This document shows positions 8,532 to 18,377 of a stretch of 64,000 nucleotides of DNA, in pieces. Source of the DNA: Marivita sp. S6314. Lineage in GTDB: Bacteria; Pseudomonadota; Alphaproteobacteria; Rhodobacterales; Rhodobacteraceae. How positions within the stretch are numbered: the first letter of the stretch is position 1; every line of letters begins with the position of its first letter. Both the position numbers and the translations under genes were made by a program. Location: positions 372,001 to 436,000 of the forward strand of contig NZ_JALKAO010000001.1 in the NCBI RefSeq assembly GCF_023015985.1, written 5' to 3'. Under the pieces are notes generated by a model that saw nothing but the letters and a program-made list of their open reading frames with translations, searched no databases and had not been told where the DNA came from.

Positions 8532-8933
8532 TCAAACCATCGGTATTCCGTTTTCTACGCAAGAGGCGGAGACGACTTCAGCATCAATCTTCCGCACTCC
8601 ACGGGGTAGCGCCGGCGAGATGGTGTAAACCGCATCTCCTCGCCACAGACCACCCTCTTCGTAAACATTTGTGCGCAAATGCCGCGCAAAGCCGTAGCCC
8701 CGGATCAGGGCATACTGGGCCGCTGCACAGCGCGCATAGTCTTCCACGTCCTCGCTGCTGCGGGCACCGCGCATCGCGACATCGAACTTGACCAGATCGC
8801 CATCCAGAAGCGTCGTGTCGACGCCTTCGTATGCTGGGGCAAATGGCAGATTGGCAGGCGGCGGCACGTCACAGGCCGACAACCCACCCAGCATCATCAA
8901 AGCCACCGGAGATATGCTCGCCATTCGGCGCAT
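8532..8933 (-). CDS. Putative lipoprotein between nuoG and nuoH
   Basis: A 133-aa protein with a short signal peptide and a lipobox (GGLSAC, cysteine at about residue 21), so it is probably a lipid-anchored periplasmic protein. The mature part has two further cysteines (RCAAA and ASCVEN) that could form a disulphide. I do not recognise a family with known function. It starts 5 nt after nuoG and ends 7 nt before nuoH, so it is transcribed and probably translated with complex I. Paracoccus and Rhodobacter nuo clusters are known to carry unidentified reading frames, and this is one of that kind. Confidence 0.8.
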
Positions 8934-11160: not shown

Positions 11161-11556
11161 TTACCGCAAAAGGCGGCCAATCTCGGTCTGAGACTGAATC
11201 TGCACCTTTCCGAACCGGCACAGTGCGGCGTCGTCATCCGCGCGCACGCCATTGTCCAACAGGAAACTCTCGGCCTTGGCACGCATGCGCTTTTTCTCGG
11301 ATTTGGAGGTTACGTAATCCTCGACCTCTTCATCCGAATAGCCTTTCTTGCGCGCCAGCGATTTGAGCGCGTTCAGGGCGGAATAGGCCCGGATCAGACG
11401 CGGATTGATGTCATCACAGGTTTTGCGGATCGCGTCGGCAATCGCCACGGCCATCACACCGTTGTCAATCTCCGGAACATCCCGAAGCGGCGGTTTGGCC
11501 AAAGCGGCCGATCCCAGCATCAGCGAGGCAATGAGAGTTACTGAAAAAATGCGCAT
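11161..11556 (-). CDS. DUF5333-like secreted protein in nuo operon
   Basis: A 131-aa protein starting at the ATG at 11556 with a clear Sec signal peptide (MRIFSVTLIASLMLGSAALA). The mature part is mainly helical, with a basic stretch SKSEKKRMRAKAESFLLDNGV and two cysteines. The pattern matches, from memory, the Rhodobacterales-restricted DUF5333 family of unknown function. The open frame extends 21 codons upstream, but that would bury the signal peptide. It lies between a lipoprotein gene and nuoG on the same strand. Confidence 0.75.
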   Translation of the reverse strand: MRIFSVTLIASLMLGSAALAKPPLRDVPEIDNGVMAVAIADAIRKTCDDINPRLIRAYSALNALKSLARKKGYSDEEVEDYVTSKSEKKRMRAKAESFLLDNGVRADDDAALCRFGKVQIQSQTEIGRLLR

Positions 11557-11647
11557 TCTTTGTCCATACGTCGTCTTGCCTTCAATATGGGGAAGACATC
11601 GCTGGTTATTCAATATCAACGATCAAACCACAGGGCTTATCAGCAGT

Positions 11648-11980
11648 TTATGGCTCAATACACCGCCCGGTCAGCACCACTTCATTGTCCGTGATGACCA
11701 GTTCGGTGTCCGCGACATCCGGACCATTGACCCAGACCACGTCCGAACTGCCCAGATACGCGATGCAATGCTGGACCACCTGATAGGCAGCCGCCTGTTT
11801 TGCGCCCTCAAGGCTGACCGAGGCCGGACCACCGGTGGCCACAAAGGCCGCGCGGTCGCTGCGTTCGGATTTAAGATCGCCGCCGAACACCGCCCCGTCA
11901 TAGGTGACGGTGTCAAGCTGACCCCGTCCGCACGCGGCCAATGTCAAAAGAACTGCGCCTGTGACCCATGTTGCTTTCAT
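11648..11980 (-). CDS. Putative lipoprotein between nuoF and nuoG
   Basis: A 110-aa protein beginning MKATWVTGAVLLTLAAC. The LAAC lipobox predicts lipidation at C17. The rest contains YDGAVFGGDLKSERSDRAAFV and ends with a cysteine near the C-terminus. The longer upstream frame was rejected because the signal peptide must be N-terminal. I know no function for the family. Its context in the nuo operon, after a cluster of three hairpins behind nuoF, is the only clue. Confidence 0.75.
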   Translation of the reverse strand: MKATWVTGAVLLTLAACGRGQLDTVTYDGAVFGGDLKSERSDRAAFVATGGPASVSLEGAKQAAAYQVVQHCIAYLGSSDVVWVNGPDVADTELVITDNEVVLTGRCIEP

Positions 11981-12054
11981 GGTGTTGCCCTTTTTGCATC
12001 CGTTGCCGCACCATGCGCGCAGTCCCGTGCCTGATGCAAGCCGTCGAAACAAGA

Positions 12055-12121
12055 AAGGCGCTTTCAAGCGCCTTCCGGGATGGCTGTTCGAACAGCCATC
12101 CAATCTCTTTTCAAAGAGATT
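12055..12121. other. Three tandem inverted repeats downstream of nuoF
   Basis: Immediately after the nuoF stop codon (read leftward) lie three perfect or near-perfect palindromes in 67 nt: 12102-12121 (AATCTCTTT / AAAGAGATT), 12078-12101 (GGATGGCTGTTC / GAACAGCCATCC, a 24-nt perfect palindrome) and 12055-12074 (AAGGCGCT / AGCGCCTT). None has a strong U-run, although AAAGAGATT and CTTTC stretches flank them. They could attenuate, process or stabilise the transcript in the middle of the operon. Confidence 0.75.
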
Positions 12122-13668: not shown

Positions 13669-14535
13669 TTAGTACACGTCACCTTTGTCGACGCGCTTTG
13701 AAAACTCGGTGTCGCCTCCGGCGGCCAGGATCTTTGCCTGTTCCACCCAATTGTCCCGGCTCACGCGGCCTTTGAACCCTTCAAGGTTCGCATTGACCCA
13801 CGCAACTTCGTCATCTGTCCAGTTTGCGATCTGGTCAAAATGGTAAAAGCCCATAGAATGCAAAAGCTGTTCAAGCTTCGGACCAACACCTTTGATTTCC
13901 TTCAGGTTATCCGGCCCACCTTCGCGTGCTGCAGTCAGTGTCTGCGGCTTGGCCCCTTCGCCGGTGCCTTCCTTCACGCCGTCACCATCGTAATCCGGCG
14001 TCGCGCTTTCGGGGGCGGCTTCGGGGGCCGCCGCTTTGGCGGCTGGTGCATTCGATGCATCCGCATCGGGTGTCTTGGCGGCCTTGTCGGTGCCACCCTC
14101 GTATTTCCATTCTCCCTTGCGCGCGGCCAGCTCGTCCTGCCCCGGCAAAGACGCAGACGCCGTGACCGTTGGTGCGACCTTACCCGACGACGCGGGAGAG
14201 GTTTCTTCCGATGCAGTTGGCGCAGGGTCAACAGCGGGCGGCGGTGCCGTTGGCGACGGCGCACTTGGTGCCGCGGCTTTGGGGGCAGGTGCGGATGTGG
14301 CCGACGCTGTGCTGTCGTCAATATTTCCCGGACCGCGCGGGGCCGGAAGATCCCGGCAGAATATCCAGTTGAACAACAGCCCAAGGATCACGAAGACCAC
14401 ACCAGCCGCGAACACCGCACCGATAAAGCTCCAGTCTCCAAGAACAAGAAGCAAGACAAACAGCAGAAGTCCCACCCCTGCGGCCAATGCCCAAGAGCCC
14501 AATGGGCAGCTCATACCGGAATTCTGTTGTTGCAT
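13669..14535 (-). CDS. Membrane-anchored protein with NuoE-type C-terminal HhH-like domain
   Basis: The 288-aa protein has two N-terminal membrane helices (about residues 14-34 and 38-58), a long Ala/Pro/Thr-rich low-complexity linker (about 66-200) and a compact C-terminal domain (204-288) with a helix-hairpin-helix-like [12 protein letters not shown] motif. That domain is about 80% identical (68 of 85 positions by eye) to the C-terminal extension of NuoE encoded next door, so the two share a duplicated module. It lies 31 nt downstream of nuoE. It could tether or assemble the NuoE/NuoF module at the membrane; that is inference. Confidence 0.85.
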   Translation of the reverse strand: MQQQNSGMSCPLGSWALAAGVGLLLFVLLLVLGDWSFIGAVFAAGVVFVILGLLFNWIFCRDLPAPRGPGNIDDSTASATSAPAPKAAAPSAPSPTAPPPAVDPAPTASEETSPASSGKVAPTVTASASLPGQDELAARKGEWKYEGGTDKAAKTPDADASNAPAAKAAAPEAAPESATPDYDGDGVKEGTGEGAKPQTLTAAREGGPDNLKEIKGVGPKLEQLLHSMGFYHFDQIANWTDDEVAWVNANLEGFKGRVSRDNWVEQAKILAAGGDTEFSKRVDKGDVY

Positions 14536-15822: not shown

Positions 15823-16134
15823 CTATTGCGTCATTACGCAGACAACGGGAATGTTCGGGATCGCGCGGTCGGACGATCCGCCGCTCAGTTCGGATAACAG
15901 CGCCGTCTGGCGCTTGGTTTGATCGTTGGGGGTATCCAGTAGGAAACACAGGTAGATATCGGTGCCATTTGTCATTCCGAAGACCGTGTTTCCCGCACCA
16001 CCCGTGCCAAAGGTTTCAAACCCTTCAGCGGTCAGGTCGGATACGAACTTGTAGTCGGACATGCCAACGTCGACAGCCATTGCCATGGGTGCCGCGCATG
16101 CCAAAAGGCCAGATATCAGCCCGACACGGATCAT
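15823..16134 (-). CDS. Small secreted protein of unknown function in nuo operon
   Basis: A 103-aa protein starting [20 protein letters not shown], a Sec signal peptide with an AMA cleavage site. The mature part has two cysteines (YLCFLLD and VVCVMTQ). I chose the ATG at 16134 because it overlaps the preceding lipoprotein stop as ATGA; a start four codons upstream is possible. It ends 8 nt before nuoE. I recognise no family. Confidence 0.75.
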
Positions 16135-16418
16135 GCCGGCGCGCACGGCCCCGTCACAAGGCGGATGCCGCCGTTTTCCAGCTGAACCGCGTCTTCCGTC
16201 GCCAGCCGGTATTGCGCCGTCTGAACAACCTGCTCACGGGTCATCCCGGTCTGAAGCTCGACCGGCAGGTAATCGCTTTCGCCAACCAGATCACAGCCAA
16301 TCGACGCGACCGCATCATCAAAGCGGGCCACATCTTCCGGCGACACGCCTTGCGGCGGGATCGCACAGGCCGCAACGCTGCACAGCGCTGCGACCGCTGT
16401 CAGAACTCGGGTCGTCAT
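16131..16418 (-). CDS. Small lipoprotein between nuoD and nuoE
   Basis: A 95-aa protein with a signal peptide and lipobox (SVAAC, cysteine at residue 18). The mature part contains two further cysteines ([18 protein letters not shown] and GPCAPA) and a [21 protein letters not shown] helix, a layout seen in small outer-membrane or periplasmic proteins. It overlaps the nuoD stop by 4 nt and the following gene by 4 nt, so three genes are chained by ATGA junctions. Function unknown. Confidence 0.75.
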
Positions 16419-17647
16419 CTGTCGATCTCTCCGAACACAACATCCATGGTCCCGATGATCGCGGCAACGTCGGCCAACTGGTGGCCGCTCGCGATGTGAT
16501 CCATCGCCTGCAAATGCAGGAAGCCCGGCGCGCGCAGCTTGGCGCGGTAGGGTTTATTGGTGCCATCCGCCACCATGTAGACGCCAAATTCCCCTTTTGG
16601 CGCTTCGACGCAGGCATAGATTTCGCCCGCAGGAACGTGGAAACCCTCGGTATACAGTTTGAAGTGATGGATCAGCGCTTCCATCGAGGTTTTCATCTCG
16701 CTGCGCTTGGGCGGTGTGACCTTGCCACGGGCCAGAATATCGCCCTGCCCTTCGGGTGCGCGCAGCTTCTCAATCGCCTGTTTGATGATCCGCAGCGACT
16801 GGCGCATCTCTTCCATACGCACAAGGTAGCGGTCAAAACAGTCGCCGTTCTTGCCGACAGGAATGTCAAACTCGAACTCATTGTAGCACTCATAGGGCTG
16901 CGCACGGCGCAAATCCCACGCCAGCCCCGATCCGCGCACCATCACACCCGAGAAACCCCAATCAAGGATTTCTTCTTCGGTCACGACACCGATATCGGCG
17001 TTGCGCTGCTTGAAGATGCGGTTTTCAGTCAGAAGCCCGTCGATATCATCAATCACCGCCGGGAATTCATCCGCCCACGTGTCGATATCGTCGATCAGGT
17101 CCTCCGGCAGATCCTGATGCACCCCACCGGGGCGGAAATAGGCCGCGTGCAGGCGCGCACCGCAGGCCCGTTCGTAAAACACCATCAGCTTTTCGCGCTC
17201 TTCAAAGCCCCAAAGCGGCGGCGTCAGCGCGCCCACGTCCATCGCCTGTGTCGTCACGTTCAGGATGTGGTTCAGAATGCGCCCGATCTCGCAATACAGC
17301 ACCCGGATCAGCGACGCGCGACGTGGCACTTCCACGCCGGTCAGCTTTTCAATCGCCAGACACCAGGCATGTTCCTGGTTCATCGGTGCCACGTAATCCA
17401 GCCGGTCCAGATAGGGCAGGTTCTGCAGATACGTGCGACTTTCCATCAGCTTTTCAGTGCCACGGTGCAGCAGACCGATATGCGGATCGCACCGTTCAAC
17501 CAATTCGCCGTCCAGTTCCAGAACCAGACGCAACACCCCGTGCGCCGCAGGGTGCTGCGGGCCGAAATTGATGTTGAAGTTGCGAATTTTCTGTTCGCCC
17601 TGCAGCACATCAATGCTGCCGTCGTCAAACTTGGAGCCGTCCATCAT
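16415..17647 (-). CDS. nuoD: NADH-quinone oxidoreductase subunit D
   Basis: A 410-aa, 49-kDa-type subunit that forms the quinone site with NuoB and NuoH. Diagnostic segments are [20 protein letters not shown] near the N-terminus, [17 protein letters not shown] and the C-terminal [12 protein letters not shown]. Two ATG codons are adjacent at the start. The first (17647) has AGAGGG at good spacing and overlaps the stop of the 41-aa ORF upstream. The gene is separate from nuoC, unlike the fused nuoCD of enterobacteria. Confidence 0.97.
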
Positions 17648-17769
17648 TGTTTGCCCTCTCTATGGGACCGCGCAGGTACACGCGCCGCGCTGAGTTTGCG
17701 CATCAGAAACGGAAGCACCAGCAAGGGCCCGAACATCGCGAGCCACACTCCGTTCACAAGCGCGCTCAT
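17644..17769 (-). CDS. 41-aa single-helix small ORF bracketed by nuoC and nuoD
   Basis: This short frame fits exactly between nuoC and nuoD. Its ATG (17769-17767) overlaps the nuoC stop as ATGA and its TGA (17646-17644) overlaps the first nuoD ATG as ATGA. The product begins [20 protein letters not shown], continues [14 protein letters not shown] and ends in HREGKQ: one membrane helix (about residues 4-22) followed by a basic tail, so N-out/C-in by the positive-inside rule. It is too short for standard gene callers. Perfect stop/start coupling on both sides argues that it is translated. It could be a small complex I accessory subunit, or a leader that couples nuoC and nuoD translation. Confidence 0.7.
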
Positions 17770-18377
17770 CCCTTGGCCTCTTCCTGTTTCTCATCCCCCG
17801 GCAGCACGTATTGCGCGCCTTCCCACGGGGACATGAAATCAAACTGGCGGTATTCCTGAACCAGCTTCACCGGCTCATAGACCACGCGTTTCTTCTCTTC
17901 GTCGTAACGCACTTCGGTATAACCGGTTGTCGGAAAATCCTTGCGCAGCGGATAGCCACGGAACCCGTAATCGGTAAGGATGCGCCGCAGGTCCGGATGG
18001 CCCGAAAACAGGATACCAAACATGTCGAACACTTCACGTTCGAACCAGTTGGCGCTTGGGTGCACATCGGTGATCGACTGCACCATTTCGTCTTCCCGAA
18101 TGCTGATCCGCAGACGGATGCGGTGGTTCTGATACATCGACAGGAAATGGTACACGACATCGAACCGCTTCGGCCGATCCGGATGATCCACCGCCGTGAT
18201 ATCAATCAAGGTCGAGAACTTGCACGACTGGTCCGATTTCAGGAATTCCACAAACCCGGCAAGGTTTGACGGGGCCACGTCAACGGTCAACTCGTCCCGC
18301 GCAACATCCCACGACAGCACGCAATCGGGACGTTTCAACTCGATATGCTGACCAAGTTCATTCAGGGCTTCACTCAT
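17766..18377 (-). CDS. nuoC: NADH-quinone oxidoreductase subunit C
   Basis: A 203-aa, 30-kDa-type subunit of the peripheral arm. The family signature is present as [41 protein letters not shown]. It is a stand-alone gene 21 nt downstream of nuoB. Its stop codon overlaps the start of the 41-aa ORF that separates it from nuoD. Length is normal for alphaproteobacteria. Confidence 0.97.

Follow-up and report, generated by a model that had tools for sequence, protein, structure and literature searches.

A putative single-helix peptide gene, very probably under selection, between nuoC and nuoD in Rhodobacteraceae

The window, that is, the whole 64,000-nucleotide stretch of Marivita sp. S6314 DNA analysed here, carries on its minus strand a 41-codon ORF that runs from ATG to TGA (17769 to 17644) between nuoC and nuoD (Table 1). 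The identities of the two neighbours are as follows. The nuoC product matches the NCBIfam model for NADH-quinone oxidoreductase subunit C with 343.8 bits against a cut-off of 225, and all 17 genomes of the genus, the window's own included, have the gene. The nuoD product matches the subunit D model with 620.3 bits against a cut-off of 360, and is 82–92% identical to the NuoD of relatives. At both ends of the ORF the stop and start codons overlap as ATGA, the mark of translationally coupled gene pairs. The best 19-residue hydropathy window of the product is residues 4–22, with a Kyte-Doolittle mean of 1.91, and the segment C-terminal to residue 22 has a net charge of +5. An AlphaFold2 model built from an alignment of 10 sequences predicts, with moderate confidence, one helix from residue 3 to residue 38 (mean pLDDT 71, pTM 0.29). 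An initial annotation, made from the sequence alone, had described a one-helix, basic-tailed ORF of 41 residues between nuoC and nuoD with an ATGA overlap at each end; that description holds, on the minus strand.

Table 1. Features of the nuoC–nuoD junction and other small ORFs of the window.
Feature	Position	Strand	Description
41-aa ORF	17644..17769	-	hydrophobic stretch at about residues 4-22 with conserved core; basic tail 24-41
nuoC (203 aa)	17766..18377	-	TGA overlaps ATG of the 41-aa ORF as ATGA (4 nt)
nuoD (410 aa)	16415..17647	-	first ATG overlaps TGA of the 41-aa ORF as ATGA (4 nt)
Purine-rich AGGAAGAGGCCAAGGG, end of nuoC	17770..17785	-	candidate ribosome-binding stretch for the 41-aa ORF, read from sequence
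AGAGAGGGCAAACA, within 3' end of the 41-aa ORF	17648..17661	-	candidate ribosome-binding stretch for nuoD, read from sequence
95-aa ORF, nuoD-nuoE	16131-16418	-	ATG overlaps nuoD stop; lipoprotein-like start by eye
107-codon frame, nuoD-nuoE	15823-16146	-	signal-like stretch
288-aa ORF, nuoE-nuoF	13669-14535	-	residues 121-286 match NuoE C-terminal extension
Small ORF downstream of nuoF	11161-11619	-	DUF5333 (2e-37)
Small ORF downstream of nuoF	11648-12103	-	lipoprotein-like stretch by eye; no Pfam match
Small ORF downstream of nuoF	8532-8933	-	lipoprotein-like stretch by eye; no Pfam match

The initial annotation held that two such precise overlaps would be improbable in a non-coding spacer, and this does not survive a look at the junctions of relatives. 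Among 203 distinct junctions, that of the window counted in, 56 show a direct 4-nt overlap of nuoC and nuoD, and nuoD, as aligned, starts with ATGA in 131. Since nuoC and nuoD already overlap as ATGA, an insert between them inherits a start codon at one end and a stop codon at the other. The interior is hardly more telling. When it is shuffled with dinucleotides preserved, 947 of 3000 sequences stay open at the given length, a proportion that simple arithmetic lowers to about 1 in 10 once the frame too is left to chance. Taken alone, the double overlap is therefore weak evidence for a gene, hardly more than chance would give. Were the ORF no more than an open frame arisen by chance in a short stretch of spacer, it would thus receive both ATGA ends from the site itself and would stay open in about a third of cases, and its absence from the congeneric junctions that were read would be no surprise. 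Chance does not account for the way in which other genera preserve both frame and residues at the nuoC–nuoD junction.

The first homologue, in L045, was found by eye when the junctions of relatives were read. Profile searches were then made over whole genomes in six frames, and their carrier counts are lower bounds, since only a limited number of candidates is scored in each genome: the member in L136 was missed, and that in G266 escaped the two-sequence profile. In 394 genomes, the two-sequence profile (window and L045) has as its best non-self matches G398 (7.8e-14) and G080 (3.3e-6), both at nuoC–nuoD, and G280, with an E of 0.011, lies there also. A five-sequence profile run on 390 genomes of the order adds five more genomes, all five at nuoC–nuoD: G595 (1.1e-10), G742 (1.8e-9), G600 (1.5e-8), G589 (2.2e-5), and G266 (1.5e-4). 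In 389 relatives the same profile returned G080 besides the window, with two weak matches elsewhere. With a ten-sequence profile, one genus shows 2 carriers among 20 genomes, both known already, and another shows 4 among 60, all at nuoC–nuoD, of which G843 and G823 are new; in 300 genomes of the family the four strong matches are to carriers already known, and six further matches are weak and lie elsewhere. The member in L136 (genome G114) is short, 28 residues, and was recognised only by reading the junction. All matches with E ≤ 1.5e-4 lie at the nuoC–nuoD junction, in other genera.

Off the junction, matches are weak. For the two-sequence profile they make up 41 of 45 rows: G204 (5.1e-4), G209 (0.0046), and 39 rows from 0.008 to 0.1; the 26 of these 41 loci that were inspected, about 1.5 kb on each side, show no nuoC or nuoD. 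The five-sequence profile gives G143 (8.4e-4), G559 (0.0058), and G715, G349, G570, G612, and G766 (0.0029–0.0075). The ten-sequence profile gives G813 (0.045) and G834, G833, and G841 (0.018–0.093) and, in the genomes of the family, G021, G210, G237, G143, G068, and G108 (0.0014–0.009). None of the loci of these five- and ten-sequence matches has nuoC or nuoD. Re-examination of 49 weaker-match loci found nuoC and nuoD only at L109, which is a member of the family; the other 48 matches are weak and not near these genes. Within the genus, the window protein searched alone found, besides itself, only weak matches (0.02–0.96). The profile has one further match in the window's own genome, at an E of 0.72, and none at E ≤ 0.01 anywhere in 16 congeneric genomes. 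That is, no clear homologue away from nuoC–nuoD was found in the genomes searched, among which carriers may be missed. A 40-aa ORF with a LLALLGPFYLFIPPAR core, on the plus strand of L260 (1495–1617), is weakly family-like (E 0.007) and is ATGA-coupled to a downstream gene that we take to encode a glutaredoxin; it is perhaps a family member at another address.

The members share a helix core of the form (F/L/I)GP. In ten-row alignments G14 and P15 never vary, L16 varies little or not at all, and L10, P20, and R24 are nearly invariant. The L136 peptide, which lies outside these alignments, keeps FGP and has no P20. Comparing the window with L103 over 41 ungapped codons, 59% of residues agree, with a dS of 0.98 and a dN of 0.32, and 5 of 2000 shuffles give a ratio as low. 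Some pairs are unconvincing in the same pairwise test, with 276 of 2000 shuffles as low for the window and L104, 151 for L103 and L109, and 77 for L103 and L104. Where the alignment is gapped, pairwise ratio tests may come out too favourably, and therefore a six-pair test was run ungapped from the start codon, with each sequence used once, although the paths may share tree branches. The six pairs together give a pN/pS of 0.47 (single pairs, 0.22–0.65). Under a null in which substitutions are shuffled the mean is 0.93 and the minimum 0.57, so that none of 2000 shuffles is as low; in the other two frames the same test gives 0.85 and 1.67. Purifying selection within the frame is what this comparison of nuoC–nuoD junctions, a check that the initial annotation had named, brings out.

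Given the conservation of residues and of frame among homologues at nuoC–nuoD, we consider the 41-aa ORF to be very probably a selected protein-coding gene, with a probability of about 0.9, and the earlier suggestion of an overlooked gene is upheld to that extent. The same evidence, that is, homologues at one address, conserved residues, and in-frame purifying selection, makes a chance open frame very unlikely. The gene would found a new small-protein family, for which Pfam, NCBIfam, and PHROG appear to hold no model and the PDB no solved relative. Searched up to an E of 1, the window protein has no family in any of the three libraries, the L103 protein has none in NCBIfam, and 10 of 10 members used as queries have none in Pfam. 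Against PDB chains, the family profile reaches at best an E of 0.34, to a viral protease chain. Among the openly licensed PMC papers listed in literature searches, none on a small nuoC–nuoD ORF was found.

The distribution of the family is patchy. We compared 224 junctions, 205 of them distinct, in a set that is enriched because it includes loci fetched as family carriers, and even so the family is found, alone or with other genes, in 13 of the 205. Rows L021 and L160, without nuoD, and rows L052, L081, L095, and L100, which failed filters, were dropped. The other distinct junctions comprise 61 that are direct (gap ≤ 10 nt), 43 with a two-helix ORF alone, 30 with a sulfotransferase-like gene alone, 36 with NTF2-like or GFA genes or combinations, and 22 unclassified. 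Single examples match Pfam Sulfotransfer_3, Lumazine_bd_2 (which we take to be the NTF2-like gene), and GFA. Two two-helix examples have no Pfam or NCBIfam model above cut-off, and one has a weak match (0.0022) to phrog_16232, a family of unknown function. The nuoC–nuoD junctions of L032 and L216 contain palindromic repeats (AAGATTTTTCGGACGAAAAATCTT-like); the frame at the L191 junction resembles that of L032, both being open and coupled at both ends.

Within the genus, 15 of the 16 congeneric junctions are readable (the stretch of L021 lacks nuoD), and the 41-aa ORF is in none of the 15. The two-helix ORF is found in twelve; an NTF2-like gene accompanies it in four of them, and GFA and NTF2-like genes together in one more. 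The remaining three are direct. The initial annotation had looked to frameshifts or stops in close relatives as a sign against the frame; there are none to count, the insert there being different or missing. Presence differs even between close congeners. L103 carries the 41-aa family, and L241, a close congener whose flanks are 93% and 92% identical, carries an unrelated insert; the two inserts are wholly different, with boundaries that fall precisely on the stop codon of nuoC and the start codon of nuoD, and no remnant of the 41-aa gene is seen in L241. On a NuoC–NuoD tree (FastTree) the family requires 11 changes. Shuffled labels require 12.8, with 14 of 500 shuffles reaching as low a number. 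On that tree 29 of 202 inner branches are starred, and the starred branches force only 2 changes. In 80 named relatives and the window, gaps of ≤ 100 nt are found at nuoA–nuoB in 69 of 76, nuoB–nuoC in 72 of 77, nuoC–nuoD in 33 of 81, nuoD–nuoE in 36 of 79, and nuoE–nuoF in 0 of 70. Since nuoD–nuoE and nuoE–nuoF are also gapped, variability is a feature of the central part of the operon and not of nuoC–nuoD alone.

The abundance of the two-helix ORF, present in those 12 of 15 congeneric junctions, raises the question of whether the 41-aa ORF might be its decayed remnant, particularly as both begin with a hydrophobic helix that is followed by a proline and basic residues. A profile comparison with hhalign gives a probability of only 4.8%, over 10 columns, and L109, L136, and L144 each carry the two ORFs next to one another, which together leave descent by decay hardly credible.

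Readings at the level of RNA and of mobile elements were also considered and set aside. A structured RNA or attenuator is rejected, as the native sequence folds no better than 178 of 200 shuffles (z +1.2), and Rfam has no match at the gathering score, the one match, mir-492, being chance-like and far below it. Between 17300 and 18100 there is no promoter-like site and one terminator-like site, inside nuoC, for a shuffle mean of 0.6. Mobile cargo is rejected since tblastn with the window protein only, against plasmid and phage collections, gave no match at E up to 1. Recent import together with the flanks is rejected as well, there being no local peak of identity between the window and L103.

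If only openness mattered, the ORF could be a coupling leader, taking ribosomes over the insert that separates nuoC from nuoD, and the lengths of the inserts fit such a role. Among inserts of 21–260 nt, 42 of 52, which are related and not independent sequences, are 1 modulo 3, a length compatible with a 4-nt overlap at each end of the insert, and the odd inserts of L032 and L191 are likewise open and coupled to both neighbours. The residues, however, show more conservation than openness would require, with GP invariant in 10 of 10 and a pN/pS of 0.47, and 61 of 205 junctions manage without an insert of > 10 nt. The pure coupling leader offered by the initial annotation leaves the conserved GP core unexplained, and we regard it as improbable.

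According to the positive-inside rule, basic residues lie on the cytoplasmic side of a membrane; the helix would thus insert in the inner membrane with its basic tail in the cytoplasm. Ribosomes finishing nuoC would restart on the 41-aa ORF and then on nuoD by termination-reinitiation, and the peptide would thereby be made together with complex I. The accessible part of a study of Haloferax volcanii (H. volcanii) and E. coli reports that overlapping gene pairs were strictly coupled in 13 of the 14 tested (PMC6728339). The family of rare, presumably single-pass inner-membrane peptides of 28–41 residues would then be an exchangeable nuoC–nuoD insert of the Rhodobacteraceae. We propose, at somewhat less than even odds, that more than co-expression links the peptide to complex I: as an optional helix with an accessory or assembly role, the peptide would tune the complex or its membrane surroundings and would be dispensable on evolutionary time. 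The fixed nuoC–nuoD address speaks for a complex I role; the patchy presence and the mixed company of inserts at the junction speak against it. An obligatory complex I subunit is unlikely, because of this same patchiness and the unrelated inserts. A subunit should be present wherever the complex of the lineage is, and the ORF is absent from 15 of 15 readable congeneric junctions, so that the complex I subunit of the initial annotation is weakened in the sense of a general one. The accessible part of a paper on the structure of complex I of P. denitrificans, a species that may itself lack the gene, names no comparable one-helix peptide (PMC11522691).

Much of the distribution would also suit a real small membrane peptide unrelated to complex I, namely a cargo gene at a permissive spot in the nuo operon, where it would benefit from expression that is both strong and coupled. 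Many unrelated inserts occupy the junction (in 109 of 205, two-helix ORFs or sulfotransferase-like, NTF2-like, or GFA genes, whether alone or together), nuoD–nuoE and nuoE–nuoF are permissive too, with nuoA–nuoB and nuoB–nuoC far less so, and presence in 13 of 205 is patchy. Homologous recombination in nuoC and nuoD could even fix the address without a functional link, although the lack of an identity peak between the window and L103 counts against spread through the flanks. Free cargo would be expected elsewhere too, and the clear homologues are all at nuoC–nuoD. A cargo gene is thus a possibility to be taken seriously, which we nonetheless rate below an even chance.

The optional accessory helix proposed above can be set beside known systems. 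Unidentified reading frames (URFs) are known between nuo/nqo genes of alphaproteobacteria, namely P. denitrificans and R. capsulatus. They too are small uncharacterised ORFs inside a complex I operon, and the 41-aa family is presumably of this kind, that is, one of the small ORFs of alphaproteobacterial nuo operons. The window ORF, which we compare with the historical URFs by description, differs in lying at nuoC–nuoD, in its 41 residues and one helix, and in matching no library family. CydX and CcoM are single-helix accessory peptides of bacterial respiratory oxidases. They resemble the present peptide as short, single-pass membrane peptides tied to the genes of a respiratory enzyme, and no sequence relation is claimed; they belong to oxidases, and the window family is patchy. 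As extra complex I subunits of P. denitrificans, the accessible part of the paper cited above lists NDUFS4, NDUFS6, NDUFA12, and PIMT (PMC11522691). These are likewise proteins beyond the 14 core subunits; the best match of the 41-aa family among solved chains is at E 0.34.

The window holds other small ORFs between nuoD, nuoE, and nuoF and further down (Table 1). The two between nuoD and nuoE have no Pfam match above cut-off. The match of the 288-aa ORF is to positions 239–399 of NCBIfam PRK12373 and is below cut-off; it looks as if a second copy of the NuoE extension had come to lie after a hydrophobic stretch.

The complex I of alphaproteobacteria is a closely studied bacterial model of the mitochondrial enzyme, and a selected, apparently coupled membrane peptide in the nuo operon is a concrete candidate for the accessory factors that may have been overlooked. 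It is also a clear case in which conservation, rather than neat overlaps, argues for a tiny gene. One may go further and suppose that the nuoC–nuoD junction is a standing exchange site, at which lineages swap small, exactly coupled membrane peptides. These, drawn from the 28–41-residue GP family and from the two-helix families, would tune complex I or help in its assembly and could stand in for one another. We think this unlikely, but if it were true, the complex I of Rhodobacteraceae would have a variable set of accessory subunits that was missed for being short.
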